45,877 nt of DNA from a virus: positions 1-45,877 of the IMG/VR virus record IMGVR_UViG_3300012920_000071; one strand, 5' to 3'. The notes under the pieces were generated by a model that did not search any database, was not told where the DNA came from, and saw only the letters and a list, made by a program, of their open reading frames with translations. Positions 6,047 to 45,877 of this stretch are shown here, piece after piece (position 1 is the first letter of the stretch; each line of letters opens with the position of its first letter). Made by a program: the position numbers and the translations under genes.

Positions 6047-6613
6047 ATGAGCGACTTAAAGTGGGCAAAAGGCATTCTCGAGAAGGTTGAGCAGGGCAAA
6101 GAAGTAAGCCAGGAAGACCTTCAGCGAGCAACAGAGATAACGCTAGACGAGGTGAAGAACAATGCTCCTCGTTATGCTAAAAACCAGACGGAACTTGCAG
6201 CCATATTTAAAGTAGACCGCAAAACCATACAAAGATGGCGTAAAGAGCCCGGTTTTCCTGTCCCCGCATCCAATGGTAAGTGGGATGTAGCCGCTACGCG
6301 CGAGTGGCTACGCGCGAATAATAAGATTGATAATAGTGACATTGAAGAGGAAGACCTGCATGAGCTCAAAATCCGTCAGTTAAAATTGATATGTGAAAAA
6401 CTGGAGCACGAGTTGAAGGTAAAGCGAGGTGAATATACCTTAAATGAGGATGTCCGTAGATGGGTTGCTACCATGGTGCAGGAGTCAAAAACCGTGCTTT
6501 TAAGCATTCCATCCAAGCTTGCTCCAATAATGGCTGGACTAGAACCTGCTGATGCTGAAGAGCGCCTCAAGGAAGCAATTGATGAGGCTTTGGAGCAACT
6601 GCACACCAGTTGA
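6047..6613 (+). CDS. terminase small subunit (Nu1-like)
   Basis: 188 aa. Residues about 45-95 (NQTELAAIFKVDRKTIQRWRKEPGFP ... WDVAATREWLRANN) form the winged helix-turn-helix DNA-recognition domain of lambda Nu1-type small terminases. The rest is a helical region (ELKIRQLKLICEKLEHELKV...) ending in a helix typical of oligomerisation or large-subunit contact. It recognises the packaging site and recruits the large terminase. It lies upstream of TerL but is separated from it by five small genes. No SD is visible before ATG 6047, and the predicted rightward promoter lies about 50 nt upstream. Confidence 0.85.
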   Translation: MSDLKWAKGILEKVEQGKEVSQEDLQRATEITLDEVKNNAPRYAKNQTELAAIFKVDRKTIQRWRKEPGFPVPASNGKWDVAATREWLRANNKIDNSDIEEEDLHELKIRQLKLICEKLEHELKVKRGEYTLNEDVRRWVATMVQESKTVLLSIPSKLAPIMAGLEPADAEERLKEAIDEALEQLHTS

Positions 6614-6632
6614 CATATGCCACTAAAGTATG
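6610..6632 (+). promoter_or_regulatory. GTTGACA-N14-ATG element (gene 6630)
   Basis: TTGACA at 6610-6615, 14 nt, then ATG 6630. The TGA inside it is the stop codon of the small terminase gene. No SD is present. Confidence 0.6.
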
Positions 6633-7304
6633 TTCGACCTTGAGCCATTTCATAACAATCCTACGCTAACGCTTTGCGATAGCTGCAAGTACAAGCCTAC
6701 TTGTTTGTCAAAAGGGAAGTGCTTATTGAAGTCTGCTCATTCTTTTACTGAGAAGTACCACTCAATGTTGTCTTTATTTAATGAGTCACCCGCGGGTAAC
6801 ATTGAATTAGCGAGGTATAAGACTAACCCTAAGACAGGGGAAAGAGTCCAAGTTACGGAGGTTAAAGATAAGGCTGTAGCAAAGAAATTGGATACACAGA
6901 AGAGTTGGACTCCCAGCAAGGTAAAGGACGATAAAATCAGAAAAAAGATAACAGAAGGTGAACTCTCCAAGAAAGAAGTTCCCCAGATGGATAAACCATT
7001 ACCATCACAGGGTGGAACTACCAGTACGGGTCAGCATAACAAGTTTAAACCTGAAGTACCTGAAGGGGGCAAAGTTCGCAGTACCACAAAGAACAGACCT
7101 AGCGTTACCCCAAAGACCCAATCGAAGTTGAAGGAGAAAGCAGGGGAATTATATGATTTATTTAGAGGCCAAGCAAAGGGAACATTAAACTCAGAGGATG
7201 TTGAGAAACTTGAAGGAGTGGTAAAGCGTCTCGCAGATAGAAGAGGCATATCAAGAGCGAAAGCCATCGGGATGCTGAAAAAAGTTGCAAGGCTACGTAA
7301 GTAA
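6630..7304 (+). CDS. basic protein with N-terminal Cys cluster, 224 aa
   Basis: Follows TerS. The N-terminus carries CDSCKYKPTCLSKGKC (residues about 16-31), a possible metal-binding Cys4 cluster. The remainder is Lys/Thr/Ser/Pro-rich and probably disordered, then a helical basic end (residues about 170-224, LKEKAGELYDLFRGQAKGTL ... AKAIGMLKKVARLRK). No family recognised. The start is fixed by the GTTGACA-N14-ATG element. Its position between the terminase subunits and its charge suggest a virion or DNA-associated protein. Confidence 0.65.
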   Translation: MFDLEPFHNNPTLTLCDSCKYKPTCLSKGKCLLKSAHSFTEKYHSMLSLFNESPAGNIELARYKTNPKTGERVQVTEVKDKAVAKKLDTQKSWTPSKVKDDKIRKKITEGELSKKEVPQMDKPLPSQGGTTSTGQHNKFKPEVPEGGKVRSTTKNRPSVTPKTQSKLKEKAGELYDLFRGQAKGTLNSEDVEKLEGVVKRLADRRGISRAKAIGMLKKVARLRK

Positions 7305-7306
7305 GT

Positions 7307-7328
7307 TGACATAGGGAACTTTATTATG
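7307..7328 (+). promoter_or_regulatory. GTTGACA-N13-ATG element (gene 7326)
   Basis: TTGACA at 7307-7312, just after the previous stop, 13 nt, then ATG 7326. The only near-perfect copy with a 13- rather than 14-nt gap. Confidence 0.6.
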
Positions 7329-7634
7329 AGTAAAATCGATGAATTAAACCGCCGGGTCATCGAGTTAGACGCGGCTCTCGACCAAGTGATTATTGCACGT
7401 GGCGAGAATCTAGCCGCTGAAATGGAATTTATGCATGGAGACTCCCATGAAAATGGGAAGAAACTTGCTGGTGGTGCTGCTCTTGCTGGTGGCGCAATCT
7501 ATGGGGGCATGGCAATGAAAAGAGCTGGTGGCCTTAAGCCCAAAAGAATGGGACGGGTTATGAAATATGATGCAAAGAGAGCCGGACGCTCTTTAGGTCG
7601 TGGTTTAAAAAAAATCGGAGGTTTCTTTAAATGA
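7326..7634 (+). CDS. small glycine-zipper protein, LxELN-type start, 102 aa
   Basis: Starts MSKIDELNRRVIELDAALDQ, an amphipathic helix similar to the starts of the genes at 7631, 8166, 8486 and 45433. A Gly/Ala run (KLAGGAALAGGAIYGGMAM, about residues 55-75) has the small-residue spacing of a glycine zipper and could insert in a membrane. The tail is strongly basic (KRMGRVMKYDAKRAGRSL...). Family role unknown; I infer a virion-ejected or membrane-active protein. Its stop overlaps the next start. Confidence 0.65.
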   Translation: MSKIDELNRRVIELDAALDQVIIARGENLAAEMEFMHGDSHENGKKLAGGAALAGGAIYGGMAMKRAGGLKPKRMGRVMKYDAKRAGRSLGRGLKKIGGFFK

Positions 7635-8173
7635 GTCGTATAATTGAACTAGGTGAATACCTCGATGAGGTAATTGATTCTAACATAGAGTTCCGCTCTA
7701 AATCGGATGAGAAGGATGCTTATGCTCCAACTCGCCCTATATCAAGAGCCCTTACTAGCCCAGCTACAGCTGGTGCTGTATATGCTGGTGGTGGTGCTTA
7801 TATGGCCAAAAAAGCATTTGATAAATTGCCAGCCAGCCAAAAAGATCGAATGGGTCAACAACTTGGTAAAATGGCAGGAGCTGTCTCAGGTAGACGTAAA
7901 GTTCCAGCAGCATTACGCAATCCAAAGACTGGTAGAATTTTACCAAAATACGTAAAACGCGGCAAAATAGGAGCTTTGGCTGGAGTAGGCGCACTTGCTG
8001 GTGGAACCGCAATGGCAACACAAAAACTTGCAAATGTATTGCAAGCAAGAGCTGCAGAAGGTCGCATCAACAAGCTAAAGCGCAAGGTTCGTAAGGCTGA
8101 TGCACTTGGTAAGACCAATAAGGCTGAAAGACTTGAACGTAAATTAAAGAAGAAGCAGAGCCGCTATGTATAA
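7631..8173 (+). CDS. glycine-zipper protein, LxELx-type start, 180 aa
   Basis: N-terminus MSRIIELGEYLDEVIDSNIE parallels the other LNELLDEAIE-type starts. Two Gly/Ala-rich segments follow (AGAVYAGGGAYMAKKAF at about 46-62 and IGALAGVGALAGGTAMATQK at about 113-132), separated by a very basic region; the C-terminus is a Lys/Arg coiled region. Good SD (GGAGG, 9 nt upstream). Overlaps both neighbours by a few nt. No annotated family recognised. Likely two membrane-prone segments in a cationic protein. Confidence 0.65.
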   Translation: MSRIIELGEYLDEVIDSNIEFRSKSDEKDAYAPTRPISRALTSPATAGAVYAGGGAYMAKKAFDKLPASQKDRMGQQLGKMAGAVSGRRKVPAALRNPKTGRILPKYVKRGKIGALAGVGALAGGTAMATQKLANVLQARAAEGRINKLKRKVRKADALGKTNKAERLERKLKKKQSRYV

Positions 8174-8489
8174 TACTGATAAACTTTACGAATTGAATGA
8201 GCTTCTTGATGAAGCTATTGAGTTTACTACCTTTAAGTACAAGCCACTCGGTAACCAAAGTGGCAATCAACCTGAGATTAGTGCTCCTGCTGTTGCTGAT
8301 ATTGAGCATGACAAAAAAGCAGCTGAGAGCAAACCTAAGACCTCACGTGCTAAGAAAGCCACCACTCCTGCTAAGAAAAAGTTCAATTTGAAAAAAGCAG
8401 GTAAGTATGGTGCTGTAGGTGCTGGAGCTTTAGGATTGGGTTATGGTGCTCACCACCTTTATCGTCAACATATGGCGAAAAAGAAGTGA
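8166..8489 (+). CDS. small glycine-zipper protein, LNELLDEAIE start, 107 aa
   Basis: Begins MYNTDKLYELNELLDEAIEF. A Lys/Ala/Thr-rich linker follows, then KYGAVGAGALGLGYGAHHLY (about 79-98) as the single Gly/Ala hydrophobic segment and a basic end (RQHMAKKK). The DNA encoding NELLDEAIE is almost identical to that at 8511-8531 of the next gene, pointing to recent duplication. Function unknown; same inferred class as its neighbours. Confidence 0.65.
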   Translation: MYNTDKLYELNELLDEAIEFTTFKYKPLGNQSGNQPEISAPAVADIEHDKKAAESKPKTSRAKKATTPAKKKFNLKKAGKYGAVGAGALGLGYGAHHLYRQHMAKKK

Positions 8490-8791
8490 AAAATCTCATT
8501 GCCCTAAATGAGCTTCTTGATGAAGCTATTGAGCTAGGTCACGGTACAGATCAGCCTTACAAGAAAAAGAACGCAAAGCGTGACGCAAGGACAGCGAAAA
8601 TGTCCGCGAAGAAGCAGGCTAAGATTCAAAAGTACATGGATAAGGGCGATTCCAAGTCAGAAGCTGAAAACCGATACGAACGACGTAGGTTGGCTAGAGC
8701 CATGTTTGTACCATACTCAACTCCTTTTGGTGCTGTAGGTGAAATATCCAGACAGCGACGCATTAGGGAGTATGAATCCCGTGCCAAGTAA
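8486..8791 (+). CDS. small basic protein, LNELLDEAIE start, 101 aa
   Basis: GTG start at 8486 overlapping the previous stop. The N-terminus MKNLIALNELLDEAIELGHG matches its neighbour. The rest is a highly basic helical protein (RDARTAKMSAKKQAKIQKYM ...) with a short less polar segment MFVPYSTPFGAVGEI but no full glycine zipper. Lys+Arg is far in excess of Asp+Glu. It may bind DNA or the capsid interior. Function unknown. Confidence 0.6.
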   Translation: MKNLIALNELLDEAIELGHGTDQPYKKKNAKRDARTAKMSAKKQAKIQKYMDKGDSKSEAENRYERRRLARAMFVPYSTPFGAVGEISRQRRIREYESRAK

Positions 8792-8827
8792 GAATTGACT
8801 TGTTATTACATGCCTCTTTAGTGAGGT

Positions 8828-10558
8828 ATGGACAATATAGTAGCGCAATCTGCGCGTGAAGCATGGAAGCCGGCTGACCGAAGAGCTCCTTGGGAGTGGG
8901 CAGAGGATAACTTTAAAGTAGCTGTTTCACCTTTCCCGGGAAAGTGGCGTTCAGACAACTCCCCATGGGTTAAGAAATTCATGGAGACTTTTGCGGATAA
9001 TAGAGTCCGTACTATTTCTGTAATGTGTTCTGCTCAGTCAGCTAAAACTGAGACAATGATCGCATGTCTTTGTTGGCTTATATCTGAAGATCCTGGGCCA
9101 ACTATGTGGGTAACATCTAATGAAGATGAGGCACTAAAGTTCGCTAAGGAGCGCATGATGCCATCACTTAAGGAATGCCCATTGGTAGAACAATTGATAC
9201 CGAAGTCTAGAGAACTTGCGAAGGCTAAGGAAATCTTCTTCCCGCATATGACTTTGGAGATTGTAGGCTCAAATGCACCATCTAAGCTACAATCTAAGCC
9301 TCGTAGATGGCTCCTACTTGATGAGGTACGAAACTGGCCGCCAGGTGCGTTACCTATGGTACTAAAACGTACACGTACCTACTGGAATGCTAGACAGCTG
9401 ATTATATCAACACCAGATGTAGAGCATGATGCTGTTCACCAAGAGTTCCTAAAAGGCAATCAGCAGATATGGAACGTAGTTTGTCCGAAGTGCGGAGAAA
9501 AGCATGAGCTTTCGTGGGAGTTCATAAAATGGGATAGTAACGATGTCACAAAGCCTGGTGGGAAGTACAACTTTGATGAACTATCAAAAACAATTCGCAT
9601 GGAGTGTCCAAATTGTGCCTACGCAACATATGACACACCTGCTGAAAGAAGAAGGCTTACGCATGGAGAGTGGGTAGAAACAAACCCAGATGCATCAGAG
9701 AAACGTAAGTCTTTTACGTGGTCGGCTCTTTTACCTACATGGGTGAGGTGGTCAGAGTTGGTTGAGGAGTTTCTTTCTGCTAAAAAAGCCCTATCATGGG
9801 GAGACCCACAGCCACTAAAGACTTTCATAACCGAATCACTGGGACAACCTTGGCAAGACCGACTTCGCTACAATCAAGGTGGTAACTGGTCTGAGGACAG
9901 AAAAGGCACATTTAGGCTTCTAGATAGGTGGGAAAATGAAACCCGCAGATTCCTAGGTGTAGATGTGCAAAAAGACCACCTTTTTTATGTATGTAGAGCG
10001 TTTGGAGAAAGAGGAATATCTCGCTTAATAGACTATGGTAAGATACCTGACTTTTCTTCACTACGGGAGAAGATAACTGAATTGCGTGTAGATGATGATG
10101 ATGTGGTCATTGACTCTGGTTATAATGCCACATCTATATACAATGAAGTGACCAAAAGTGGCTACTCATGGAAACCTATGAAGGGAGATGACTATCAATA
10201 CTTTGTAGTGGATGGTGTACGCCAACCATATAAAGATACCTTGGTAGACCCGGCAATGGGTACTACAATGCAAGGTCAAGTGAGACCAGTTCGGTTGTTT
10301 GTATTCTCAAATCCAGCAATCAAAGACCTTCTCTCAGAGTACACTCGAGGCATTGGTCCATCATGGGAGATCGCAGAGAATATCACCATGGATTATGTCC
10401 AGCAGATGAGTGCGGAACATCGTGAGGAAATAACAGATACTTACGGAAAAGTTTCCTATAAGTGGGTAAATAAACCCCGCCGACCAAACCACTACTGGGA
10501 CTGCGAGTGTATGATTATGGTGGCGGGGCTTGTAACGGGTTGCATTGGGGTCGCGTGA
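8828..10558 (+). CDS. terminase large subunit (GpA-like)
   Basis: 576 aa, GpA family. The ATPase half has a Walker A-like CSAQSAKTE (about 67-75) after SVM and a Walker B RWLLLDEVRNWP (about 158-170). Two CxxC pairs (CPKCGEKHEL and CPNCAYATY) form a probable zinc ribbon. The nuclease half follows with FLGVDVQKDHLFY and VVIDSGYNATSIY, the conserved acidic residues of the RNase H-like fold. It cuts and pumps DNA into the prohead. Start at 8828 is not preceded by an SD; a related TTGACT lies 27 nt upstream (8795-8800) and a three-codon ORF (8810-8821) sits between them. Confidence 0.92.
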   Translation: MDNIVAQSAREAWKPADRRAPWEWAEDNFKVAVSPFPGKWRSDNSPWVKKFMETFADNRVRTISVMCSAQSAKTETMIACLCWLISEDPGPTMWVTSNEDEALKFAKERMMPSLKECPLVEQLIPKSRELAKAKEIFFPHMTLEIVGSNAPSKLQSKPRRWLLLDEVRNWPPGALPMVLKRTRTYWNARQLIISTPDVEHDAVHQEFLKGNQQIWNVVCPKCGEKHELSWEFIKWDSNDVTKPGGKYNFDELSKTIRMECPNCAYATYDTPAERRRLTHGEWVETNPDASEKRKSFTWSALLPTWVRWSELVEEFLSAKKALSWGDPQPLKTFITESLGQPWQDRLRYNQGGNWSEDRKGTFRLLDRWENETRRFLGVDVQKDHLFYVCRAFGERGISRLIDYGKIPDFSSLREKITELRVDDDDVVIDSGYNATSIYNEVTKSGYSWKPMKGDDYQYFVVDGVRQPYKDTLVDPAMGTTMQGQVRPVRLFVFSNPAIKDLLSEYTRGIGPSWEIAENITMDYVQQMSAEHREEITDTYGKVSYKWVNKPRRPNHYWDCECMIMVAGLVTGCIGVA

Positions 10559-10568
10559 CCACCCAACC

Positions 10569-10620
10569 CAAAACCCTATAATAGGTAGTGAGCTACCGCC
10601 TACCTATTATTTTAGGGGGT
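10569..10620. terminator. hairpin between convergent genes
   Basis: Perfect 11-bp stem ATAATAGGTAG / CTACCTATTAT (10578-10588 / 10600-10610), loop 11 nt, followed by TTTA; outer CCCT/AGGG can extend it. It lies between the TerL stop and the stop of the leftward gene, so it could serve both directions, although the U-run is short. It is preceded by CAAAACCCTATAATA, a 15-mer repeated exactly at 43260-43274. Confidence 0.6.
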
Positions 10621-10628
10621 TATTGGGA

Positions 10629-11192
10629 TTAGAGGAGGGCCTTGTAGATTTCCATGATGGGCTTCATCGAGTTTGCTAGTAGACGCTTTTCATCATCAGT
10701 CCAAGAAGTCACAGGCTTTGATTTACATGCTTTCTTCCAATATTGCTCAATCTTAGAGCACAACCCAGGTATGCTTTCAAACCGTTGGTCTGAGCTTTTT
10801 GAGTATGTTGATTTCTCTCCATCGTGATCAATACCAAGGCACTGACGCAAGGAAGTGTACTTCCCACTATCCAAGTCCAATTGCCCTGATGCTTTTAGCT
10901 CATGCAGTTTGATATACTGATATGCTGTCTTTCTATTGAAATCGAGATTTTCCTTACACCAAGCTTTGAAGTCTTCAACTTCATCTCTAACTTGTGAAAG
11001 AACCTCACCCGCGCGTGCGAAATGCACAAGTGAAGAGGACATTGACTGTAAACCAGCCTGATGTGCTTCACGCACTTCCTCTACTCTATTGCGAGAACTA
11101 ACTATAACTCCCACTTCCTCTGTCTTCTCTATTACGGATACATGACCAGTAACGGTCAGGTTATCTAACTTACGTTCAGTAGCTGTACTCAT
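10629..11192 (-). CDS. DUF3102-like protein, 187 aa
   Basis: Leftward. Helical protein with VEDFKAWCKENLDFNRKTAYQYIKLHEL (here split over residues about 72-98), the pattern of DUF3102-type phage/plasmid proteins (fxxWcxxnlxfskrtAyxYixlxe) that look DNA-associated. The C-terminal half is basic. It overlaps the HTH gene by 4 nt, so both form one unit. It sits on the opposite strand inside the head operon. Likely a regulator or DNA-binding partner; function not proven. Confidence 0.6.
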   Translation of the reverse strand: MSTATERKLDNLTVTGHVSVIEKTEEVGVIVSSRNRVEEVREAHQAGLQSMSSSLVHFARAGEVLSQVRDEVEDFKAWCKENLDFNRKTAYQYIKLHELKASGQLDLDSGKYTSLRQCLGIDHDGEKSTYSKSSDQRFESIPGLCSKIEQYWKKACKSKPVTSWTDDEKRLLANSMKPIMEIYKALL

Positions 11193-11602
11193 TTATTTCT
11201 CTCTAACTGTATTTTTCTGTATTTTTCACAAGCGGCCAAAGATTTCTGACCTCTTGTGGGTGGAAGTCCAAAGTTTTTTTGAAATAGTTTCACTGATTTA
11301 CTCAGTGCTTGTTTAGTAACTCCATGCATCTCTGCAATCTCTTTCATTGATTTACCAAGGAAAAGAGGCAGACCGAAAGAGCAAACGATAGTTGCGATCT
11401 TTAGCCTGTAGTTACTGGAATCATATATCAGCGCAATGACTCTCGTTAGAGCATCCTGTACTTCGCGTCTCACCTTTTCTTTTATGTACTCCTGGAGCAC
11501 ATCTGGCATTTCTGAAAGAATACCGTCTTTATCAAGCTTGTCGTAATCGAAATCTATACTATCATAGTCGAACTCTACTTTGCCCTCGAGTAATGTTGAC
11601 AT
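11189..11602 (-). CDS. helix-turn-helix (sigma-like region) protein, 137 aa
   Basis: Leftward. The N-terminus is acidic (VEFDYDSIDFDYDKLDKDG). Residues about 92-112 (KSMKEIAEMHGVTKQALSKS) form a helix-turn-helix of the sigma-4 or resolvase type. SD AAGGAAAA precedes ATG 11602. Its ATG lies inside the GTTGACA box of the opposite-strand gene 11616, so the two divergent starts share DNA. A candidate transcription regulator of the late genes or of its own cassette. Confidence 0.65.
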   Translation of the reverse strand: MSTLLEGKVEFDYDSIDFDYDKLDKDGILSEMPDVLQEYIKEKVRREVQDALTRVIALIYDSSNYRLKIATIVCSFGLPLFLGKSMKEIAEMHGVTKQALSKSVKLFQKNFGLPPTRGQKSLAACEKYRKIQLERNK

Positions 11603-11618
11603 CGTTTTCCTTGGTATG
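11596..11618 (+). promoter_or_regulatory. GTTGACA-N14-ATG element (gene 11616)
   Basis: TTGACA at 11596-11601, 14 nt, then ATG 11616. Overlaps the start codon of the leftward HTH gene. Confidence 0.6.
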
Positions 11619-11894
11619 AGCGTGGCTAACTGGAAGGTAATCTACCGAGATTACACGAGTGAAGAAATTGCAGAGGAACTTGCAACATTAAAAAAAGAGG
11701 CTAAAAATATGTACTTAGCCCAGAGTGTTGGCAATAAATCTTACCAACGCAGCATCACAAGTGTAGAGGAGCGGCTACGGGCTATCGCGGAAATCAAACG
11801 TGAGCAGGGTGGAAATTCATATAACGACTCTTACTATGTTGACTTTCGTGGCGAAGGTCAAATTGAATGGGGTAACCGCAATAGAATACCATGA
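11616..11894 (+). CDS. head-to-tail joining protein, gpW-like
   Basis: 92 aa. Start chosen at ATG 11616 because the GTTGACA element sits 14 nt upstream and the upstream extension would overlap the divergent gene. Helical protein with IAEELATLKKEAKNMYLAQS and a C-terminus WGNRNRIP. Size and place (immediately before the portal) match lambda gpW-type head completion proteins. Overlaps the portal start (ATGA). Confidence 0.65.
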   Translation: MSVANWKVIYRDYTSEEIAEELATLKKEAKNMYLAQSVGNKSYQRSITSVEERLRAIAEIKREQGGNSYNDSYYVDFRGEGQIEWGNRNRIP

Positions 11895-13426
11895 GCAATA
11901 AACCTTCATTCTTAGATAAGACAATCGCGTTCATCAATCCTGAGTGGGGCTTAAAGCGCAAGTACCATTCAGACCGTCTTGAATTTGCCTATGATGCGGC
12001 TAGGCATACGCGGGCGCATGAGAGCGCGGGACATAGCCTTTCAACGGCTGCATCAGAGAGCCTACAGAATCAACGTGACCGTGTTAAGATGATGTGGGAA
12101 GCACGTAACCTCGTGCAAAACTACTCATTCTTTAAGAGCATCCTTCTAAAGGAGAGCATGTATGTTTGCGGATCAATCCGTTACCAAAGTCAAACTGGCG
12201 AGCCTTCAATAGACCAGGCATACGAAGAATACTTTAACAATTGGCAGAAGAAGTGTGATATAACAGGTCGCCATCAATTTCGTCACCTAGTGCAACTTGC
12301 CCACATGGGAATGCGTAGAGACGGTGATGCGGGCTTTGTTATGGTCACGCAGGGCAAGGATGTTAAAATCCAGTCAATTGAGGCAGACCGAATTGGTAAC
12401 CCAAATGAGCTTGGTAAGAAGCAAGACAATTACATTGGTGGCATAACCATCAACGAGTTTGGCCAACCAACAGGGTATAAGATTTATAAGCGCACACTTC
12501 ATGGTCAATACAAAGACCCAAGAGACATACCTGCGCCCAACTTCGTCCACTACTTTGACCCAATGAGGTCAGACCAGTATCGTGGAATAACAGCATTTGA
12601 AACTGCAATCCCCCACGCAAAGGATTTGTATGAACTGCTTAAGATGGAGAAGTTAGCAGTCAAATGGGGATCAGCTCATGCCGGCGTGATCACTAAGAAT
12701 GATCAAGGGCCTGACAAGTGGACGTCAAAAGTCCCTGTGGATTCGCAGGGCAAAGCTGTTGATATGAAGCTGGAGAAGATAGATCCAGGAAAAATTCTTC
12801 GTTTACAGCCAGGGGATTCCGTCAACATGTTCCCTACCAGCAGCCGTCCTTCCGCGACTTTCAATGGATTTATCAACACTCTTGTAAGAGAGATGGCAAA
12901 TGGCTTGAACTTGCCTTTCGCTTTCGTCTGGGACATGAGTGCGTTTGGTGGTGCAACAGCCCGCTTAGAGGTTCAACAAGCACAAAGAGCCTTCATGCGC
13001 CACCAAACACTTCTTAAGGAACAAGTCCTCGATCGCATCAAGGATGCAGTAATAGGACGAGCTATAGCTTATCAAGACTTGCCCGCGCACCCCAACTACA
13101 AGAAGGGACGCTGGCAGTTCAATTCTCAGATTACTGCTGATTTAGGGCATGAGGTTCAAGCCAACCTAAATCTAATGCAAGCAGGGCTAAAGACATCTGA
13201 AGCTATATTTGGTGAAATGGGCTTAGACTTCCAAGAGGAAAGTGAAAAAGTCGCTAAGGAGCTTTCATACCTACAGGAACTAAGCCAGAAGTATGGCATT
13301 CCACTTGGTGTATTGGCTCAAAGACTACAAGGTTCTGATCAAGCCATAATGGAGTATAGGCAACTACTATCCGGCGAACAGCCACAACAACAACAGCAAG
13401 GTGAGCAAGAAGGCCAAGGGAATTAA
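11891..13426 (+). CDS. portal protein (lambda gpB-type)
   Basis: 511 aa, lambda-type portal family. Conserved features seen: VQNYSFFKSILLKESMYVCG, HMGMRRDGDAGFVM, VKIQSIEADRI, HYFDPMRSDQYRGIT and GLNLPFAFVWDMS. It forms the dodecameric DNA channel at the capsid vertex, contacts the terminase during packaging and the connector afterwards. C-terminus is Gln-rich (QPQQQQQGEQEGQGN), which looks like a flexible tail. Starts four nt inside the gpW-like gene. Confidence 0.92.
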   Translation: MSNKPSFLDKTIAFINPEWGLKRKYHSDRLEFAYDAARHTRAHESAGHSLSTAASESLQNQRDRVKMMWEARNLVQNYSFFKSILLKESMYVCGSIRYQSQTGEPSIDQAYEEYFNNWQKKCDITGRHQFRHLVQLAHMGMRRDGDAGFVMVTQGKDVKIQSIEADRIGNPNELGKKQDNYIGGITINEFGQPTGYKIYKRTLHGQYKDPRDIPAPNFVHYFDPMRSDQYRGITAFETAIPHAKDLYELLKMEKLAVKWGSAHAGVITKNDQGPDKWTSKVPVDSQGKAVDMKLEKIDPGKILRLQPGDSVNMFPTSSRPSATFNGFINTLVREMANGLNLPFAFVWDMSAFGGATARLEVQQAQRAFMRHQTLLKEQVLDRIKDAVIGRAIAYQDLPAHPNYKKGRWQFNSQITADLGHEVQANLNLMQAGLKTSEAIFGEMGLDFQEESEKVAKELSYLQELSQKYGIPLGVLAQRLQGSDQAIMEYRQLLSGEQPQQQQQGEQEGQGN

Positions 13427-15533
13427 GCGATTATTTCGTGCTTATCTCGATAAGCTAGATAAAAAGTCTAGAGCCAAGTTAGCCAAGTTACCCGCGGGTG
13501 ACTTCGCTACTGATAAGTTCTACACTCCAAAGGTGACGATGGACAAGCTCAAGACCAAGGCTATTGACTATGGGGGTGCAGGTGCTGCGGGAACGGGTGG
13601 TTACATCATAGGCGGCAAGGATGATCCCAATAAGAAGGACACTAGTGGTCGCCCAGATAAAAGGCTTAATAGGAAGATAAGTGCTTACAAGGCTGCTGGG
13701 CTTATATCAGAAAAAGAAGCTGAGAGCCTTAGAAAAAGCACTACCAATGTGATCAATAGAAGGCTTGATGGCATGAAGCCTACAACTGATCAACGTGCAA
13801 AAATTGAGAGGTCATTAGGCTTCAAGGATGGTCAAGCAGCTCGACAATCACGCGAGTATGATGAAAAATATGCCAAAACCAATCGAGATGTTGATGAGGC
13901 TAAAAAAGCTGCTAACCGTGAAAGAAGACAAGCTCAAAGAAAATATAGCGAAATAGCAGAGCAAAGAAGAAGAGATGCCTCAATCGCAGGTAATACATCA
14001 CGATCTACTCTTACTGAAAGTCAAAAGAGAAACATTAAGAGGCAAACACGTGCAAAACTACCAGCAGAATTAAATGACAAGATTGAGCGAGTAGGGGTAC
14101 AAGGACTTCGTGGAGCTGATAAATTAGCTTACAACTCTGCATATCGGGTACAAGAGGATCGTTTTGTAAAGAGACTTAGCTCTGGTTCTAAGGGTAGATT
14201 AACTCAAGAGCGTAGCAAAAGAAAAACCTTTGTTGATGAGCGAGAAAAGAAATATGTAGGTGAAGGACTAGAGCGCGCAGAAGCTCGCAAACTTGCAAAC
14301 ATTGACTACAATTCAAGGTCAAGAAAGAATCCGGTTCCTAAAAAAGTGCGAGGTAAGAAATCTAAGTTTGAATCTGTCAAAGAGACATTAACGGAAGAGG
14401 CTAAAAAAGGGAACAAAAAGGCTCAAGACGAACTCAAGAAGTATAATGAAAATCCACCAACAACGACTGGGGGGATGCAGCAAAGACTTGATAATATAAA
14501 AGGCAATACTGGAGAAGGTCTAGAGATTACACCAACAGGTACTTCAACAGGCAGACTACAGGGACAAACAAAAGAATCTCAGCAAGCCGCAAAGAAAAGC
14601 ATAGAAGTCGAAAAGGGTAGCCAAGAGGATGTTAAAATTAAGCCTCTTTCTAAAGTTATTGGTGAAATGCCTGAACTACAGGGTGAAAGAGGAGAAGCAT
14701 ATGTAAGTGCAAGGGAGGCCATAGGAAGCGCATATCGTTCTGGAAAGATAACTGCAGCACAGGCTAAAGCACGAAATAAAAAAGCTTTAGCAAACCTTCG
14801 GTCCCCTAAAACAACTGTTGCTGACTTAACGCGCAAAACACAACGTAGATCAAAGAAAATTGATCAACCAGGCTCCAAGCCTCAATTCGATCCTTCTGCT
14901 AAAGTTGAAGGAGGTAAGTATGGTCTTAAGAAAAATGAAAAAGGCCAGAAGGTAGTTGATAAAAGACCTGCTCAGGAAATCACTCCAACTGCAAAAGATA
15001 GAGCGAAGCTTGATCAAGCAATTGCTGTATCTAGTAACATCAAGAAAACCACTAAGGCTGACTCTCAAGCTGAACAGCAACAGGAAGCTGCAAGGAATAA
15101 AATTTTAGCAGACAAGGATAGGCGCGATAAAAAGAAGAAGAAGAATAACGAGCTTGCTTCAAAAATTACACAAACCTTTTTTGAGGAGAAAAAAGAAAAG
15201 AGAAAAAGTAAACGTTTGGCCGCAGGCGCAGCCGCGGGAACCCTTACTGGTGCAGAGATAGCTAGACGCTATGTAATGCATGATGTGCCGGCTCGTCATC
15301 GTCAGTACGACAAGGCTGGATACTCAAAAAAACAACCAACCACAGGTGGAGTTGAGGGGCAAGATTTGACGGGCTGGGCTAAAGGCAAAAAAGGCTTATA
15401 TAGCAAGGATGCCCCAACAGGATTCCGTAGGAAAGTTACTGGAAGAGCACTAGCTCGATTGTTGACAGGGACAGGCTTAGGTATAGCCGCCGGAGGACTT
15501 TATCATCATGCCAAGCAGAAACGAAGAGATTGA
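13401..15533 (+). CDS. large Lys/Arg-rich protein with C-terminal glycine zippers, 710 aa
   Basis: GTG start at 13401 overlapping the portal end. Almost the whole chain is charged and predicted helical or disordered, with strong Lys/Arg excess. A short Gly/Ala stretch lies near residues 54-68 (GGAGAAGTGGYIIGG). Two Gly/Ala hydrophobic segments lie at the C-terminus (LAAGAAAGTLTGAEIARRYV and LTGTGLGIAAGGLYHHAK). No family recognised. Place and composition suggest a capsid-interior protein that is ejected with DNA, as in other phages with internal proteins after the portal; this is inference. Confidence 0.6.
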   Translation: MSKKAKGIKRLFRAYLDKLDKKSRAKLAKLPAGDFATDKFYTPKVTMDKLKTKAIDYGGAGAAGTGGYIIGGKDDPNKKDTSGRPDKRLNRKISAYKAAGLISEKEAESLRKSTTNVINRRLDGMKPTTDQRAKIERSLGFKDGQAARQSREYDEKYAKTNRDVDEAKKAANRERRQAQRKYSEIAEQRRRDASIAGNTSRSTLTESQKRNIKRQTRAKLPAELNDKIERVGVQGLRGADKLAYNSAYRVQEDRFVKRLSSGSKGRLTQERSKRKTFVDEREKKYVGEGLERAEARKLANIDYNSRSRKNPVPKKVRGKKSKFESVKETLTEEAKKGNKKAQDELKKYNENPPTTTGGMQQRLDNIKGNTGEGLEITPTGTSTGRLQGQTKESQQAAKKSIEVEKGSQEDVKIKPLSKVIGEMPELQGERGEAYVSAREAIGSAYRSGKITAAQAKARNKKALANLRSPKTTVADLTRKTQRRSKKIDQPGSKPQFDPSAKVEGGKYGLKKNEKGQKVVDKRPAQEITPTAKDRAKLDQAIAVSSNIKKTTKADSQAEQQQEAARNKILADKDRRDKKKKKNNELASKITQTFFEEKKEKRKSKRLAAGAAAGTLTGAEIARRYVMHDVPARHRQYDKAGYSKKQPTTGGVEGQDLTGWAKGKKGLYSKDAPTGFRRKVTGRALARLLTGTGLGIAAGGLYHHAKQKRRD

Positions 15534-16623
15534 GCGTAAGGAACGGGCTGCAAAGCTACGAAAAGAGCGAGCATTAGATCGTAAGATTGCTCGCACAACT
15601 GCGTTGATAGGTACTGGTGTAGGTGTTTCTGGGTTACTTGCTGCAACTCAAGCACGTAAGGGAGTAAAGTCCACTGCTGCTGTTGCAGAAATTGCGAAGG
15701 ATAAAGGAATACTAGGAGCCCTTGCAGGCAAGGAGCATGGCTACTCTTTACGAAGAAGATTCTTAGATGGATTTAGGAGAAAAGTTAAGTTAAACGCCAA
15801 AGGGCGTCAGATTCTATTATCTTTAGGAGAAAGCCTTGGCCTAGAAGACAAGATTTGTGAAAAACGCTTTGCTACTGAACTTGCAAAGTTTATCACGTTT
15901 GATGAAGTAACAGACGCGATGCGTGATGCGCGTCGAGTGCGTAATCAAATGAAGAAATTTGTTAAGCAGGGTCGTACTGGATACAGTGCAGCTAGGGATA
16001 TAGAAGACAAGGTTAAAGGCGAGAAACGTAATCCTCGTAAAAAGTTTTTTTGGGAAAAGCAGGGATTTAAAGATGCTGCACTAGCAACGGCACTTACTGG
16101 AGCCATTGGAGGAGGAGCGATTCTTGCTAACAAAAAAGGTTGGATGGGTCGCATAGCTAGGGGAGCTAAAGCAACCAAACCAAATACAGGATACACTCCT
16201 GATCCAAACTTTAAACTTAATGCAATTTCTGAGCTATTTGAGCTTGATGCCATTGACATGCTTGATGGCGACAAAGGGTGGAGAACTTCACGTCCCACTT
16301 CTTCTTCTGTAAGAGTCCATAAAGATGGATCATCTCGTAGAGATCGTCGTCGCAAGTACTGGTATGAAAGAAAAGCAAATCGTGACAAAATGATAGCAGG
16401 TGGAATTGCTACAGGAGTTCTCGGTCTAACAGGTGGACTAGTTGCCGCAAAGCGTTCTGGCAAGAAAGCTAAAAAAGCACTCGACGCTCTTAAGAGACAA
16501 AGAAGGCGTACTGTTCCCGTTGCTATAACTCAAGCTGGTGATGACGGTGGTGATCTCCAAAGTGTCATTACTAAAGTGCGGAATAAAAATCTTACAAAAG
16601 AAAAGATAAAGATCGGTGGCTAA
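15508..16623 (+). CDS. Lys/Arg-rich protein with three glycine-zipper segments, 371 aa
   Basis: Starts at ATG 15508 with GGAGG upstream, inside the previous gene. Three Gly/Ala hydrophobic segments: TTALIGTGVGVSGLLAATQ (about 30-48), ALATALTGAIGGGAILANKK (about 191-210) and MIAGGIATGVLGLTGGLVAA (about 295-314). Between them lie basic regions and an internal copy-like segment KLNAISELFELDAIDM (about 231-246) related to the start module of the small glycine-zipper proteins. Probably multi-pass or membrane-inserting once released; candidate ejection protein. Function unproven. Confidence 0.6.
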   Translation: MPSRNEEIERKERAAKLRKERALDRKIARTTALIGTGVGVSGLLAATQARKGVKSTAAVAEIAKDKGILGALAGKEHGYSLRRRFLDGFRRKVKLNAKGRQILLSLGESLGLEDKICEKRFATELAKFITFDEVTDAMRDARRVRNQMKKFVKQGRTGYSAARDIEDKVKGEKRNPRKKFFWEKQGFKDAALATALTGAIGGGAILANKKGWMGRIARGAKATKPNTGYTPDPNFKLNAISELFELDAIDMLDGDKGWRTSRPTSSSVRVHKDGSSRRDRRRKYWYERKANRDKMIAGGIATGVLGLTGGLVAAKRSGKKAKKALDALKRQRRRTVPVAITQAGDDGGDLQSVITKVRNKNLTKEKIKIGG

Positions 16624-16747
16624 GAAAAAAACAAAGACTCAAAAAAAACAGGAGTTGAAGGAGCAAACGGTTAAAGTTACTCCCCAAAACTTTGCTAGTG
16701 TTTTCAATATCGTATTTAATGAACGCAAGGAAGTGGCCAGTAGGTAG
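16616..16747 (+). CDS. small basic ORF, 43 aa
   Basis: GTG start (16616) overlapping the previous stop; product MAKKKTKTQKKQELKEQTVK... ends NERKEVASR. It fills the otherwise unexplained gap before 16719 and overlaps that gene by 29 nt in another frame. Coupled starts are common here, but there is no SD and the protein is short, so it may not be translated. Confidence 0.35.
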   Translation: MAKKKTKTQKKQELKEQTVKVTPQNFASVFNIVFNERKEVASR

Positions 16748-16946
16748 AACCCCACCACCTGGTTGGGTTGTAAGTCCAGAGCTATCAGAGCTTTATGGAT
16801 ACAATGTCATAGTTAGAGATAATGAGCGTTCACGTATAGAGCGCAGGATTGACACTCCATCCGTGCGTAGAATGAAAAGATCAGGGCGTAGACAAGCTTT
16901 ACTAGGAGCCGCACTTATGGCTCTTGGTATTTCTTTACGTAGATAA
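16719..16946 (+). CDS. small basic protein with C-terminal hydrophobic segment, 75 aa
   Basis: ATG 16719 is chosen over an upstream TTG. Begins MNARKWPVGRTPPPGW, then a charged middle and a Gly/Ala/Leu hydrophobic end (QALLGAALMALGISLRR). Same style as the surrounding glycine-zipper proteins but with one short segment at the very C-terminus. No SD; directly abuts the next gene. Function unknown. Confidence 0.55.
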   Translation: MNARKWPVGRTPPPGWVVSPELSELYGYNVIVRDNERSRIERRIDTPSVRRMKRSGRRQALLGAALMALGISLRR

Positions 16947-16947
16947 A

Positions 16948-17373
16948 ATGCAAGAAGAAGAACGTAAAGAAGCGATTAAGAAAGCAGGTCGAGCCGCTGG
17001 TGCTGTCGCAGCTGGTGGTGCATACTGGAAAGCCGCAAGAGATAATCAAATACTCAAAAATGCTAATGAAGACCGAAAGGGCTTTAGGCGGGATTTGGAG
17101 CAAAAGAAAAAAGCTGCTTTTGAAGAATATAAAGCAAAGAGGGGTGGAGATGCATCCATGGATAGCTGGCTAAAAGGAGAGGGTAAAGAGCACGCAGGTA
17201 TTGAGGCAAAGAAAAACAAGTATAATGACTTTATAGAGAAGAGAGATAAGGTAAAATTCATAGACACTCCAGGAAGCCACAAAACTGCGATATTTAAAAA
17301 TCGCTTTAGGCATCTGTACAACAGAATGAATCTCGGAAAAGCAAGGCTCCCCAGAATCCTCACACGTGTATGA
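16948..17373 (+). CDS. basic protein with N-terminal glycine-zipper segment, 141 aa
   Basis: ATG 16948 immediately after the previous stop. Starts MQEEERKEAIKKAGRAAGAV, then AVAAGGAYWKAA; Gly/Ala spacing suggests a short amphipathic or zipper helix. The rest is a Lys-rich helical chain. Ends over the start of the decoration fusion (4-nt overlap). Same inferred class as the previous genes. Function unknown. Confidence 0.55.
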   Translation: MQEEERKEAIKKAGRAAGAVAAGGAYWKAARDNQILKNANEDRKGFRRDLEQKKKAAFEEYKAKRGGDASMDSWLKGEGKEHAGIEAKKNKYNDFIEKRDKVKFIDTPGSHKTAIFKNRFRHLYNRMNLGKARLPRILTRV

Positions 17374-22197: not shown

Positions 22198-22547
22198 ACC
22201 ATAATGATGTTATATCATTACCTGTCACCACTGCATCGTCAGCTGGTGACATTATGGTTTTAAATAGTGATGGTACTTGTACTCCTTATGGAGCCGGCAA
22301 TACTAAAGAGAAGGCAATAGGCGTTGCATTACATGATGTTGATCCTACGGAAGTAGGTGATCCACATGCCATCCACTTATTCGGTGGGATATTCGTAGCT
22401 AAGGCAGGTGGCCCCATATCAATTGGTGATATCGTGGGCATACGTGATGGTGTAGCTACCTTGCAAAACTCCGGCACAATACGTCAAGTTGGGATAGCAC
22501 TTGAAAACCTTACAGGTGTCGGTCTAATTAGAGTCATATCAACATGA
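22194..22547 (+). CDS. head decoration-like protein, copy 2, 117 aa
   Basis: GTG start overlapping the previous stop. Begins MNHNDVISLPVTTASSAGDI, same start as the domain at 17370 and the protein at 23674. Pattern of Gly-x-V and small beta strands (EKAIGVALHDVDPTE ... VGIALENLTGVGLIRVI) fits decoration/DUF2190-type capsid proteins. Lies just before the protease gene. A capsid surface or assembly role is inferred. Confidence 0.65.
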   Translation: MNHNDVISLPVTTASSAGDIMVLNSDGTCTPYGAGNTKEKAIGVALHDVDPTEVGDPHAIHLFGGIFVAKAGGPISIGDIVGIRDGVATLQNSGTIRQVGIALENLTGVGLIRVIST

Positions 22548-23659
22548 ACGAAGACATTCATTTTTTTAACGCAGTAGATGGTCGTATCGACCCTGATGCG
22601 GGTGTAGTAAGAGGTGTTTCCTTAATAACCATGGGTACTGCTCGTGGTCACAATCTTGAGGTAGATGATAAAACACTCACACAACTAAAAGAATCACTTG
22701 ATAGCACACCACCACCAGGTATCAAAGCTAAGTTGAATCATCGCTCTGGGGTTGAAGCTGTATTCGGTTATATCAACAACTTCCAAGTTGAAGGTAATAA
22801 GCTTACTGGTGACCTAAACATGCTAAGGCATCACAAAGACTTTAATCAGACGATGGAGCAAATAACTACGATGCCCGGTCAGATAGGACTTTCGGTTGCT
22901 TTTCAAGGAGACAAAGAACCGGGTAAGGATGGAAAAGTTTATGCTCGCTGTAAGCGAATAGTCTCCGTAGATTTAGTACCTGATCCGGCAGCTAACCCGG
23001 ACGGGATGTTTGAAAGTAAAGTTGACAACGACATAGTGTATATGGACCAGGAACCTAATGTAGAGGAACTCCTTCAGGGCATCGCAGAGCGCCTTGACGG
23101 CGTTGAGGAATTTCAAGGCAACTTGGAAGAAGCAATCGCAGACCAGCTAACTGAAGATTACTCTGATGAAGATTACTCTGATGAGGATTATTCTGATGAA
23201 GCTGATTATGCCGACGATGAAGTCGAATATGAGGATTCTTACGAGGATTCTGAAGCAGAGTACGAGCCAGTCGAATACTCCAGCATTGATGATGCCTTGA
23301 CTTACCTTGAGGCTAAAGCTGAAGGCGCTCTTGCCGCTGAAGAGGAAGCTCGTGAAAATATGCTTTTTGAAAATGTAGAGGACAAAGTTGTTGAGCTCGC
23401 TGAGATCAACCAGCAGCTACAAGCTGAAAACGAAGTACTACAGGAAGCTCTTGAACTTCAAGAGGTAGAGGCTGTACCAACTTCATCAGAAGCTTTCTTG
23501 TTCGGCGCAGATGCCGGTGAAGGAACTTTTGAGTTCGCTATTCAACAACACGCTTCTGGCGAAGCTGAAAGTAGCCACGAAGCAATTCGTTCTGCTGTTG
23601 CTGACTCTCCAGCTGCTCACCGTGACTGGCTAATACGCCAAGGAATCTTAGAAAACTAA
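22544..23659 (+). CDS. prohead serine protease with scaffold-like C-terminus
   Basis: 371 aa. Residues 1-160 are a capsid maturation protease: KAKLNHRSGVEAVFGYINNF (His66), a loop TTMPGQIGLSVAF (Ser117 as likely nucleophile) and VDLVPDPAANPDGMFES. Downstream is an acidic part with DYSDE repeats (about 205-219), then a coiled coil (AEINQQLQAENEVLQEALEL, about 284-303). This matches protease-scaffold polyproteins such as lambda C, whose second half (Nu3) is also made separately from an internal start; here see 23042. It lies just upstream of a decoration gene and the capsid gene. Confidence 0.85.
   Translation: MNEDIHFFNAVDGRIDPDAGVVRGVSLITMGTARGHNLEVDDKTLTQLKESLDSTPPPGIKAKLNHRSGVEAVFGYINNFQVEGNKLTGDLNMLRHHKDFNQTMEQITTMPGQIGLSVAFQGDKEPGKDGKVYARCKRIVSVDLVPDPAANPDGMFESKVDNDIVYMDQEPNVEELLQGIAERLDGVEEFQGNLEEAIADQLTEDYSDEDYSDEDYSDEADYADDEVEYEDSYEDSEAEYEPVEYSSIDDALTYLEAKAEGALAAEEEARENMLFENVEDKVVELAEINQQLQAENEVLQEALELQEVEAVPTSSEAFLFGADAGEGTFEFAIQQHASGEAESSHEAIRSAVADSPAAHRDWLIRQGILEN
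23022..23044 (+). promoter_or_regulatory. internal GTTGACA-N14-ATG element
   Basis: TTGACA 23022-23027, 14 nt, then in-frame ATG 23042 (Met167 of the protease gene). Same spacing as in front of other late genes. Confidence 0.55.
23042..23659 (+). CDS. predicted internal start: scaffold protein, 205 aa
   Basis: Same frame as the protease; would start at Met167 (MDQEPNVEELLQGIAERL). Contains all the acidic repeats and the coiled coil but none of the protease domain, which is what a scaffolding protein should look like. Evidence is the GTTGACA-N14-ATG element (23022-23041), identical in spacing to that of other late genes, plus the known lambda C/Nu3 precedent. Expression itself is inferred. 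Confidence 0.5.
   Translation: MDQEPNVEELLQGIAERLDGVEEFQGNLEEAIADQLTEDYSDEDYSDEDYSDEADYADDEVEYEDSYEDSEAEYEPVEYSSIDDALTYLEAKAEGALAAEEEARENMLFENVEDKVVELAEINQQLQAENEVLQEALELQEVEAVPTSSEAFLFGADAGEGTFEFAIQQHASGEAESSHEAIRSAVADSPAAHRDWLIRQGILEN
23156..23200 (+). repeat. three 15-nt tandem repeats (DYSDE)
   Basis: GATTACTCTGATGAA repeated three times with one or two substitutions, coding DYSDE x3 in the acidic linker of the scaffold region. Likely slippage-prone and of variable copy number. Confidence 0.8.
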
Positions 23660-24046: not shown

Positions 24047-25105
24047 ATGTATAAGAATAGCCACGCTATCATTCGCCACGACCTCAACGCGTTTGTTGAA
24101 GAGGCCGCTTCCACTGACAAGCTTCTTTTCGGCTCACAAATTTTGCCACAACTTCCTGTGGATGCCCGCGCTGGCATTTACCCGAAGATTGAAATTGGTA
24201 ATGGTGGTGAGCTTCTTAAGAAAGACAGCACATTACGTGGACCAACCGGCACCTACAACGAAACAACTCGCAAGTTCACCACTGACACCTATGAGTGTTT
24301 AGATCGTGGTATGGAAGAGCGAATTGATGACGTTGTTGTACGTGATTACGCAAAATTCTTTGACGTAGAGGTTCTTACCTCCAAGCTCATCATGCGCACA
24401 ATGAAGCTCGATTATGAGTCTCGTGTGTACAATCTGCTACAAGGCGCTACTACATCTAGTAATAGTAACTTCCTTCAACTCGATGGTGTTACCGTTGCTA
24501 ATGGTAATAATGCTGCTAATGGATGGGGAACTACTGCTGGTCTCGCTGACTGCGACTTTCCTCTTCTACTCATGAATGCTATCACCGAGCTCACAAAGCG
24601 TGGTGAAACCCCTAATACCTTGGTAATGGGTCAGCAAGCATGGAATTGGTTCCGTCGCTCAACCAAGCTTAACACCTTCCTATACGGATCGTTAGGTACT
24701 GGTCTTGGGTACAAGATGGTGACAGAATCTGATATCGCTAAGCAGTTCCGTTTACAAAACATTTACATCGCTGCGGCTCACTATGATGAAGCTAATCGTA
24801 ATGCCTCTGCTTCCTTAACCCCACTTTGGAATAATGACCGTATGTGGTTGGGTGAAGTCAAGGGTGGTGAGGTTTCCGCTGGTGGCGCAGGACGTACCTT
24901 CGTGTGGTCCAAAGATGGCTCTGGCCTCTTCACCACAGAAACTTATCGCTCTGAGCCTCGCCGAGGTGATATGGTACGCGTTCGTCATCACACCTCTGAG
25001 AAGGTTGTGAACAAGAATGCTGGCCTCGAAATCATCCTCAATGAGCAAGGAACAGATAACGAAGGCAATTGGGGCGCAACTGCTAACTCAATTAGCTGGG
25101 AATAA
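24047..25105 (+). CDS. major capsid protein
   Basis: 352 aa, placed after protease and decoration and followed by a strong terminator, as expected for the most abundant product. Recognisable capsid-type pattern: IGNGGELLKKDSTLRGPTG, RKFTTDTYECLDRGMEERI, LDYESRVYNLLQGATTSS and a C-terminal region EVKGGEVSAGGAGRTFVWSK with HHTSEKVVNKNAG. Probable HK97 fold. No N-terminal delta domain is obvious, consistent with a separate scaffold. SD is weak (AGGA, 12 nt upstream). Confidence 0.85.
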   Translation: MYKNSHAIIRHDLNAFVEEAASTDKLLFGSQILPQLPVDARAGIYPKIEIGNGGELLKKDSTLRGPTGTYNETTRKFTTDTYECLDRGMEERIDDVVVRDYAKFFDVEVLTSKLIMRTMKLDYESRVYNLLQGATTSSNSNFLQLDGVTVANGNNAANGWGTTAGLADCDFPLLLMNAITELTKRGETPNTLVMGQQAWNWFRRSTKLNTFLYGSLGTGLGYKMVTESDIAKQFRLQNIYIAAAHYDEANRNASASLTPLWNNDRMWLGEVKGGEVSAGGAGRTFVWSKDGSGLFTTETYRSEPRRGDMVRVRHHTSEKVVNKNAGLEIILNEQGTDNEGNWGATANSISWE

Positions 25106-45426: not shown

Positions 45427-45435
45427 TTTAGTATG
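45413..45435 (+). promoter_or_regulatory. GTTGACA-N14-ATG element (gene 45433)
   Basis: TTGACA 45413-45418 inside the methyltransferase end, 14 nt, ATG 45433. Confidence 0.6.
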
Positions 45436-45877
45436 AATCGCTTAATTGAACTTAATGAATACCTTGATCAGGTCCTCTTAGAGGAAAAAGAGAAAGGCTC
45501 CCCTGCGGCAGCCATAGGGGCAGGTTTAGTTGGAACAGGCGCAGCTGCTGATTACATGGGGTATCGTCGTCGCAAGAAAAGAACCCTAGCAACTCAAGCT
45601 GAGAACCTCAAAGCGGCACAAGGACGGAGAAAGGGCTTACTAAGGCGCATGTTTAGCAAGCAAGCCCGCTTGGATGACGCAAAGGCAAGGCGTGATATTT
45701 CTTCTCTCCGTGGTGCTATGGAGCGCACTGAGGCTAGTGGTTATGGTAGGGATATTTCCCGTAGAGCTAAAGCCGCCACCAGAGGTAGCAAGATGGCTTT
45801 AAAACGCACAGGACGTAAGGTTGCAGGTGCTGGCCGTAAGGTCGTGGATTCTGTAAAGGGCATCCGTGGGCGTGGAA
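45433..45877 (+). CDS. glycine-zipper protein, LIELNEYLDQ start (partial)
   Basis: Begins MNRLIELNEYLDQVLLEEKE, the same start module as the small proteins at 7326-8791. Gly/Ala segment PAAAIGAGLVGTGAAADYMG follows at about 25-44, then a long Arg/Lys-rich chain continues past the window end (148 codons seen). Its partner genes lie 37 kb away in this window. Candidate virion-ejected or membrane-active protein by analogy. Confidence 0.6.
   Translation, partial: MNRLIELNEYLDQVLLEEKEKGSPAAAIGAGLVGTGAAADYMGYRRRKKRTLATQAENLKAAQGRRKGLLRRMFSKQARLDDAKARRDISSLRGAMERTEASGYGRDISRRAKAATRGSKMALKRTGRKVAGAGRKVVDSVKGIRGRG

Follow-up and report, generated by a model that had tools for sequence, protein, structure and literature searches.

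The internal proteins of phage T4 are described as basic; they carry capsid-targeting sequence (CTS) propeptides of 10 to 19 residues, copurify with the scaffold protein gp22 and undergo cleavage by gp21 (PMC9026906). In the giant phages SPN3US and phiKZ, whose ejection proteins have propeptides, the prohead protease takes these off internal proteins (PMC5694885), and phiKZ head proteins are cleaved after Glu at S/A-X-E (PMC9026906). In phage P1, the N-terminal 30 residues of DarB suffice to bring a reporter into heads, and the Dar proteins were found to have no consensus in common (PMC9024508). Here we describe a module, RLIELxxxLDxxLEF in outline, that stands at the N terminus of the products of five genes (7326, 7631, 8166, 8486 and 45433, named by their first positions) of IMGVR_UViG_3300012920_000071 (G000), an uncultivated tailed phage whose whole record of 45,877 bases is called the window below. 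It is near certain that this tag is real, and it is moderately probable that it targets virion-internal proteins to the capsid, working like the T4 internal-protein system. As with T4 IPI, IPII, IPIII and Alt, a short N-terminal segment is common here to divergent basic proteins. In contrast to the Dar proteins, one consensus runs across several proteins, and the tag measures 15 to 35 residues, whereas several propeptides of the giant myoviruses SPN3US and phiKZ are longer than 100 residues.

The first-pass annotation had held that these five genes share their N-termini, and this was borne out by a profile hidden Markov model (HMM) built from 20 module rows of relatives (selected after the window module was already known) and no window row. 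Run against 482 six-frame peptides of the window, it placed exactly the five named genes at the top, with 13.9 to 22.4 bits and independent E values (iE) of 2.7e-6 to 1.5e-3. The next-best peptide of the whole window reached 2.6 bits and 100 shuffled sets peaked at 9.7 bits, a likeness beyond chance. All five modules lie on the plus strand. The gene at 7326 carries a long form at residues 10 to 35 (7353..7430, ending in MEF; iE 6.8e-5), and those at 7631 and 8166 carry modules ending in NIEF (7637..7693; iE 2.5e-5) and AIEF (8181..8225; iE 0.0015), respectively. The module of 8486 ends in AIEL instead of EF (8492..8536; iE 5.3e-4), and that of 45433, the strongest match, lacks a Glu-Phe end (45439..45489; iE 2.7e-6). 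An internal segment of 15508 that had been listed as related did not hold up; it was absent from the module search and is not retained in four aligned orthologs.

In the reverse test, an HMM made from the five window rows found the modules of the relatives (best iE, 2.3e-5) and gave no match in reversed peptides. Reversed peptides likewise yielded nothing at an E value of 1 or below with the seed module model, and a best iE of 1.3 or no match with later models. Searches with the seed and later models include training rows, and the held-out test is the cleanest. At least one module at an iE of 0.05 or better was present in 26 of 35 clade records, a set that we assembled, on which the models were partly trained and in which several records carry identical module copies. 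Several of the remaining nine are short or start past the usual module site; module-like segments are seen by eye only in three of the nine (L105, L106 and L030). Searching by a strict regular expression had left most relatives undetected, and the profile was used in its place.

The module exists in two forms, the short one given above and a long one, RIIxLDxxLDxVIxxRGxxLAxxxEF. Across the eight members of the 7326 family, nine columns are invariant (M1, R10, L14, D15, L18, D19, I22, R25 and F35), and all of them are either M1 or within module residues 10 to 35. AlphaFold modeled a single confident helix over residues 3 to 38 of 7326, spanning the module, with mean predicted local distance difference test (pLDDT) values of 87 for residues 1 to 10, 92 for residues 11 to 20, 82 for residues 21 to 30 and 55 thereafter. 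A second helix (residues 75 to 98) was of low confidence, as was the Gly/Ala segment, in which no helix was modeled. None of the five tagged window proteins matched a PHROG at an E value of 0.1 or a Pfam family above its cutoff, and the three scanned against NCBIfam gave no match at its cutoff. Two PHROGs of unknown function were each matched by one of the eight proteins of the 7326 family (best E value, 5.6e-4). No published account of this protein family was found in the open-licence literature, among the matches listed.

The tag is joined to chains of different kinds. It precedes Gly/Ala chains in 7326, 7631, 8166 and 45433, and a cationic chain lacking a long Gly/Ala segment in 8486. In one related record (G009), it precedes a zincin-like protein with an HELIH...E pattern; this protein had no Pfam match above the cutoff (best E value, 0.14) and matched just itself in the viral collection, so the notion of an enzyme cargo derives from a single record and an HExxH pattern seen by eye. 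An 8486-like unit is embedded within a longer protein in another relative, G001 (L083), and in a more distant lineage (L055 and its kin) the tag, LQELNEMLDAQLTEF, stands after the portal gene. Both the number and the sequence of the cationic genes vary among relatives. The earlier proposal that the family extends to both ends of the window agrees with G001 and G009, in which a second cationic cluster, distant from the terminase and adjoining a gene of about 320 amino acids followed by minus-strand genes, stands where the right edge of the window would lead. The gene at 45433 is probably the start of such a cluster. Judged by the gene order of G001 (L244), the window record looks like an incomplete genome with circularly permuted ends; by that order, the right-edge cationic cluster would be followed by the gene of about 320 amino acids and then by the minus-strand block of the left edge. 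Two further cationic proteins of relatives were noted. One (L108:3-4259) has 1,418 residues, is Gly/Ala rich, contains I(Q/R/E)F motifs many times over and includes a stretch, DGNHRVNAAL, that is ParB-like by eye; the other (L055:5713-7782; 689 amino acids) lies directly before the portal gene and has an HNH-like stretch (Pfam HNH_3; E value, 0.037, below the cutoff).

Ten window proteins, encoded at 6630, 7326, 7631, 8166, 8486, 13401, 15508, 16719, 16948 and 45433, rank first to tenth in positive charge per residue among 40 plus-strand genes compared, a selection of the open reading frames that includes no minus-strand gene. Their genes cluster in the interval between the small and large terminase genes and in that between the portal and protease genes. 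The tagged proteins, all on the plus strand, are those of 7326..7634 (102 amino acids; module, Gly/Ala segment and basic tail), 7631..8173 (180 amino acids, net charge +25; aligned with L002:8875), 8166..8489 (107 amino acids, with a Gly/Ala segment and 49% identity to L002:9272), 8486..8791 (101 amino acids) and 45433..45876, whose 3' end is cut by the end of the record. Tagged genes overlap their neighbors by 4 to 8 bases (7631/7634, 8166/8173 and 8486/8489), as in a coupled operon.

The other five, also on the plus strand, include the large protein of 13401..15533 (710 amino acids, net +85), located after the portal gene, a relative of which in L003 contains an internal module-like ELNETLDNILYFQKK (E value, 0.0065 in one search and 1.1 in another). 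No module is present in that of 15508..16623 (371 amino acids, net +46; conserved GWRTSRPTSxSVRVH...KYWHERK...RDK), in the small one of 16719..16946, of the PPGWVxSPELSELY type, or in that of 16948..17373 (141 amino acids, with a Gly/Ala run). The fifth, 6630..7304, has orthologs in L014 and L016 with module-like RLTELNEKLEFA and RLIELNRKLEFA, respectively, by eye, that of L014 scoring just 4.1 bits. Its N terminus has a CxxC...C...C pattern, with similar Cys patterns in several relatives, which suggests a small metal-binding knob. The first-pass annotation had regarded these proteins, 6630 excepted, as an expanded glycine-zipper family. The cationic set stands, and [GA]xxx[GA]xxx[GA] runs were enriched in six of its members: 13401 has 14, versus 5.2 in shuffles of the same protein (0 of 300 as high), and in 16948, 16719, 15508, 8166 and 6630 between 1 and 13 of 300 shuffles were as high. 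The zipper label fits less well for 7631 (24 of 300 shuffles as high), 7326, 8486 and 45433, in which the runs were not clearly enriched.

A candidate partner for the tag is encoded at 22544..23659 (plus strand), which by prediction joins a prohead protease like T4 gp21 (approximately residues 13 to 150) to an acidic scaffold-like part (residues 156 to 371). The three top Foldseek matches of its model, built with six homologs, were T4 gp21 (5jbl chains; probability, 1.00; E values, 3.4e-3 to 7.8e-3), with no match at an E value of 0.001. VIA-align superposed it on T4 gp21 with a Z score of 11.5 over 129 residues at 3.4 Å; herpesvirus proteases came next, at a Z score of 7.1 and below, and some unrelated rows were near 5. 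His66 and Ser117 are invariant across the six homologs and may be catalytic. The acidic part has a net charge of −58 and is more than half helix in the model, and the protein as a whole is the most acidic of the 40 genes compared. A protease-profile sequence search of solved structures gave nine weak matches, none with an E value below 0.17 and several to coiled coils, and was set aside.

The charge of the scaffold part, taken as residue 156 to the end of each protein regardless of length, varies with the cationic genes in 33 records, namely, loci with protease and portal matches at an E value of 1e-5 or below and with identical proteases counted once. In every one of the 13 records with at least two cationic genes in the interval from portal to protease, it was −34 to −58. 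It stayed within −1 to −18 in all 14 records that have no such gene there and within 0 to −13 in all 6 that have one small cationic gene (Spearman coefficient, −0.73). This count includes the near-copies L021 and L022, omits L108 (a locus without a portal match) and scores L030 as having none, being below the cationic cutoff, although its N terminus is module-like by eye. In a portal tree of 32 rows (L021 left out and L030 labeled cationic), a branch with support of 92/91 sets the 13 cationic-labeled rows apart from the others (long-branch warnings apply to the tree), so the charge pairing does not amount to independent replication.

Many of the tags, although not all, terminate in hydrophobic-Glu-Phe, as do those of 7326, 7631 and 8166. 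Of all the classes of tripeptide that have a hydrophobic residue at one end, this one scored highest in 35 nonredundant cationic proteins, with 18 occurrences versus 2.7 expected (z score, 9.7; maximum of 7 in 200 shuffles). The set comprised representatives at 40% identity, with diverged orthologs still counted separately; L018, which is the same contig as L026 and had caused some proteins to be held twice in an earlier count, was left out. The motif was not enriched in 47 other proteins (12 versus 8.4 expected). The ten cationic proteins of the window contain 3, versus 0.56 expected, and 2% of 2,000 shuffles were as high. In 12 proteins from L105 to L108 (two of them also in the 35-protein set, and one, L107:7, possibly not a gene), the most overrepresented middle residues of [L/I/V/M]-x-Phe were Glu (10 versus 1.64) and Gln (6 versus 0.73). 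Of 39 motifs from 15 loci, 28 had a Gly/Ala-rich stretch no more than 60 residues further on, whereas random positions gave 14.8 on average and 24 at most. The LEF at portal residues 30 to 32 was not counted as a case; the N terminus of the P8625 portal also has NEF. That hydrophobic-Glu-Phe is a cut site is somewhat less likely than not, given that Glu-Phe closes just three of the five window tags.

The likeness to T4 goes beyond the shared N-terminal segment. It includes a gp21-type protease, here as a predicted fold, and an acidic core, the net charge per 100 amino acids being −31.2 for gp67, −10.4 for gp22 and −26.9 for the scaffold part of the window. Unlike in T4, the portal is of the lambda family, the scaffold-like part is fused to the protease and the tag is sometimes internal. 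Several observations weigh against a T4-like targeting role. The module models do not match T4 ipI, gp20, gp21, gp22, gp67 or gp68, the best value among these six proteins being an E value of 0.21 for gp22, with nothing in ipI, and the net charge of ipI is merely +2 in the T4 record, versus strongly basic window proteins. The internal position of the tag in some longer proteins (in L083 and, as a weak match, in L003) is unlike a classic N-terminal propeptide, and confidence in the model of the protease is no more than moderate (mean pLDDT, 65.9; predicted template modeling score, 0.36). Two of the five window tags lack a Glu-Phe end (IEL in 8486 and neither residue in 45433), 7 of the 10 window cationic proteins have no hydrophobic-Glu-Phe, two other tripeptide classes scored nearly as high (z scores of 8.8 and 8.6, with 7 cases each), and L108 often has Gln or Arg where Glu is expected, which fits poorly with a strict Glu-cleavage rule. 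The charge pairing, for its part, fits one evolutionary event kept over a long divergence. As the tag is not detectably like the T4 proteins examined, we propose a system that would work like that of T4, not one that belongs to it.

According to this proposal, the cationic proteins would be made together with the head genes, in line with the gene order and the overlapping frames. The amphipathic helix RLIELxxxLDxxLEF would then dock onto the scaffold part of the protease fusion, which is acidic and helical, and diverse cargo could thereby enter the growing procapsid. The predicted gp21-like protease would cut scaffold and cargo, perhaps at hydrophobic-Glu-Phe. The basic chains would remain in the head alongside the DNA and be delivered to the cell on infection, perhaps to condense DNA, aid ejection or act on the host. 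That the cationic proteins are virion-internal cargo is likely, and on balance we lean toward the tag as their docking signal. The first-pass annotation had suggested both a packaging signal and threading of the proteins through the membrane; the former gains from the portability of the tag, the positions of the genes, the gp21-like fold and the acidic scaffold, and the latter gains little.

The window proteins, like virion proteins of the P22/T7 type, would enter the cell together with the DNA, and the membrane-active ejection proteins of short-tailed phages offer a parallel for an ejection conduit, in which the Gly/Ala segments would be membrane-spanning zippers and the module would aid insertion or oligomerization. 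The heptad-like Gly/Ala runs enriched in six proteins, together with the Gly/Ala-rich stretches that follow the motif, are what this explanation would predict. However, the best 19-residue Kyte-Doolittle values are low for membrane helices, at 0.08 to 1.16 in nine of the ten cationic proteins, and the 1.70 of 15508 is close to the 1.65 of the terminase, a protein of soluble type (the tape measure protein reached 1.93). Moreover, 8486 and the zincin-like protein of G009 are tagged without a long Gly/Ala segment, the low-confidence model of 7326 has no helix in that stretch, and, unlike with P22/T7-type proteins, no such family appeared among the Pfam or PHROG matches at an E value of 0.1 or below. 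Membrane threading is thus weakly supported by the sequences, and we regard the conduit as unlikely. Rather unlikely, too, is that the module is a mere protease site or propeptide, its helix serving just to place the cut, with entry into the head driven by charge attraction to the acidic scaffold. The strong charge pairing of scaffold and cargo, the four cationic proteins that have no module (13401, 15508, 16719 and 16948) and the recurrence of the motif without the full helix would all be expected from it, but the helix core is conserved beyond the needs of a short cut site and the tags of 8486 and 45433 do not end in Glu-Phe.

The position of the genes between those of the two terminase subunits and after the portal gene would also suit accessories of the motor or connector, with a module that binds terminase or portal; the proteins would then serve DNA packaging or head completion instead of being cargo. 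This is quite improbable given the second cluster (distant in G001 and G009, and probably begun at the right edge of the window), the differing number and sequence of the genes among relatives, and the tag on a zincin-like protein. As to a compositional artifact, in which K/R-rich chains would merely have a common leader look, the module is short, the proteins are of low complexity and the relative rows were chosen with the module in mind; the held-out, shuffled and reversed-peptide tests refute it for the module, although not for its function, and as an account of the whole it is almost certainly wrong. Targeting in the manner of T4 is the reading that we retain.

The head genes of the window are all on the plus strand. 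The small terminase lies at 6047..6613 (phrog_57; E value, 1.1e-28) and the large terminase, which we take to be of the GpA type, at 8828..10558 (tblastn matches to annotated terminase large subunits). The lambda-family portal is encoded at 11891..13426 (PF05136; 5.6e-46) and the major capsid protein at 24047..25105 (phrog_1005; 3.7e-29). A tape measure gene was identified, and no match to the sheath family was found among the window proteins scanned. A tblastn search of 50,697 phage records gave no match to the capsid protein, the protease or the 15508 protein, which leaves that collection without a known close relative. A single portal-alignment scan of bacterial and archaeal genomes matched 84 stretches, of which none encodes a portal relative. 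P8625 and Dulem virus 34, both distant phages with a lambda-family portal, are annotated with a protease or capsid gene immediately after the portal gene. Two regulator-like genes lie on the minus strand between the large terminase and portal genes (10629-11602), and similar pairs occur in L018, L030, L048 and L069. Three proteins (17370-20288, 22194-22547 and 23674-24027) have a common MNHNxVISLP start; that of 23674 matches the head-decoration family phrog_122 (E value, 2.5e-5) and the scaffolding family phrog_673 (E value, 2e-6), and that of 17370 carries an additional Laminin_G_3 domain. In L004 and L014, a similar protein (MNQSNVISL/MNNNNTQSFP) is placed between the cationic genes and the large terminase gene. 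A 462-amino-acid open frame at 43943-45426, which overlaps a DNA methylase gene on the same strand in a different frame, is probably mechanical.

A wider possibility, to which we give somewhat less than an even chance, is that a clade of uncultivated lambda-portal phages uses a portable cargo-loading code, in which a helical tag, often closed by a protease-like motif, and an acidic protease-scaffold fusion load many unrelated proteins into heads, perhaps including enzymes such as the zincin, as an independently evolved counterpart of the T4 CTS. The tag and the acidic scaffold constitute a testable partner pair. If the proposal is true, tag-based head loading of effector or DNA-binding proteins would extend beyond the T4-like, giant and P1 phages, and such tags could locate virion cargo directly in metagenomic genomes.

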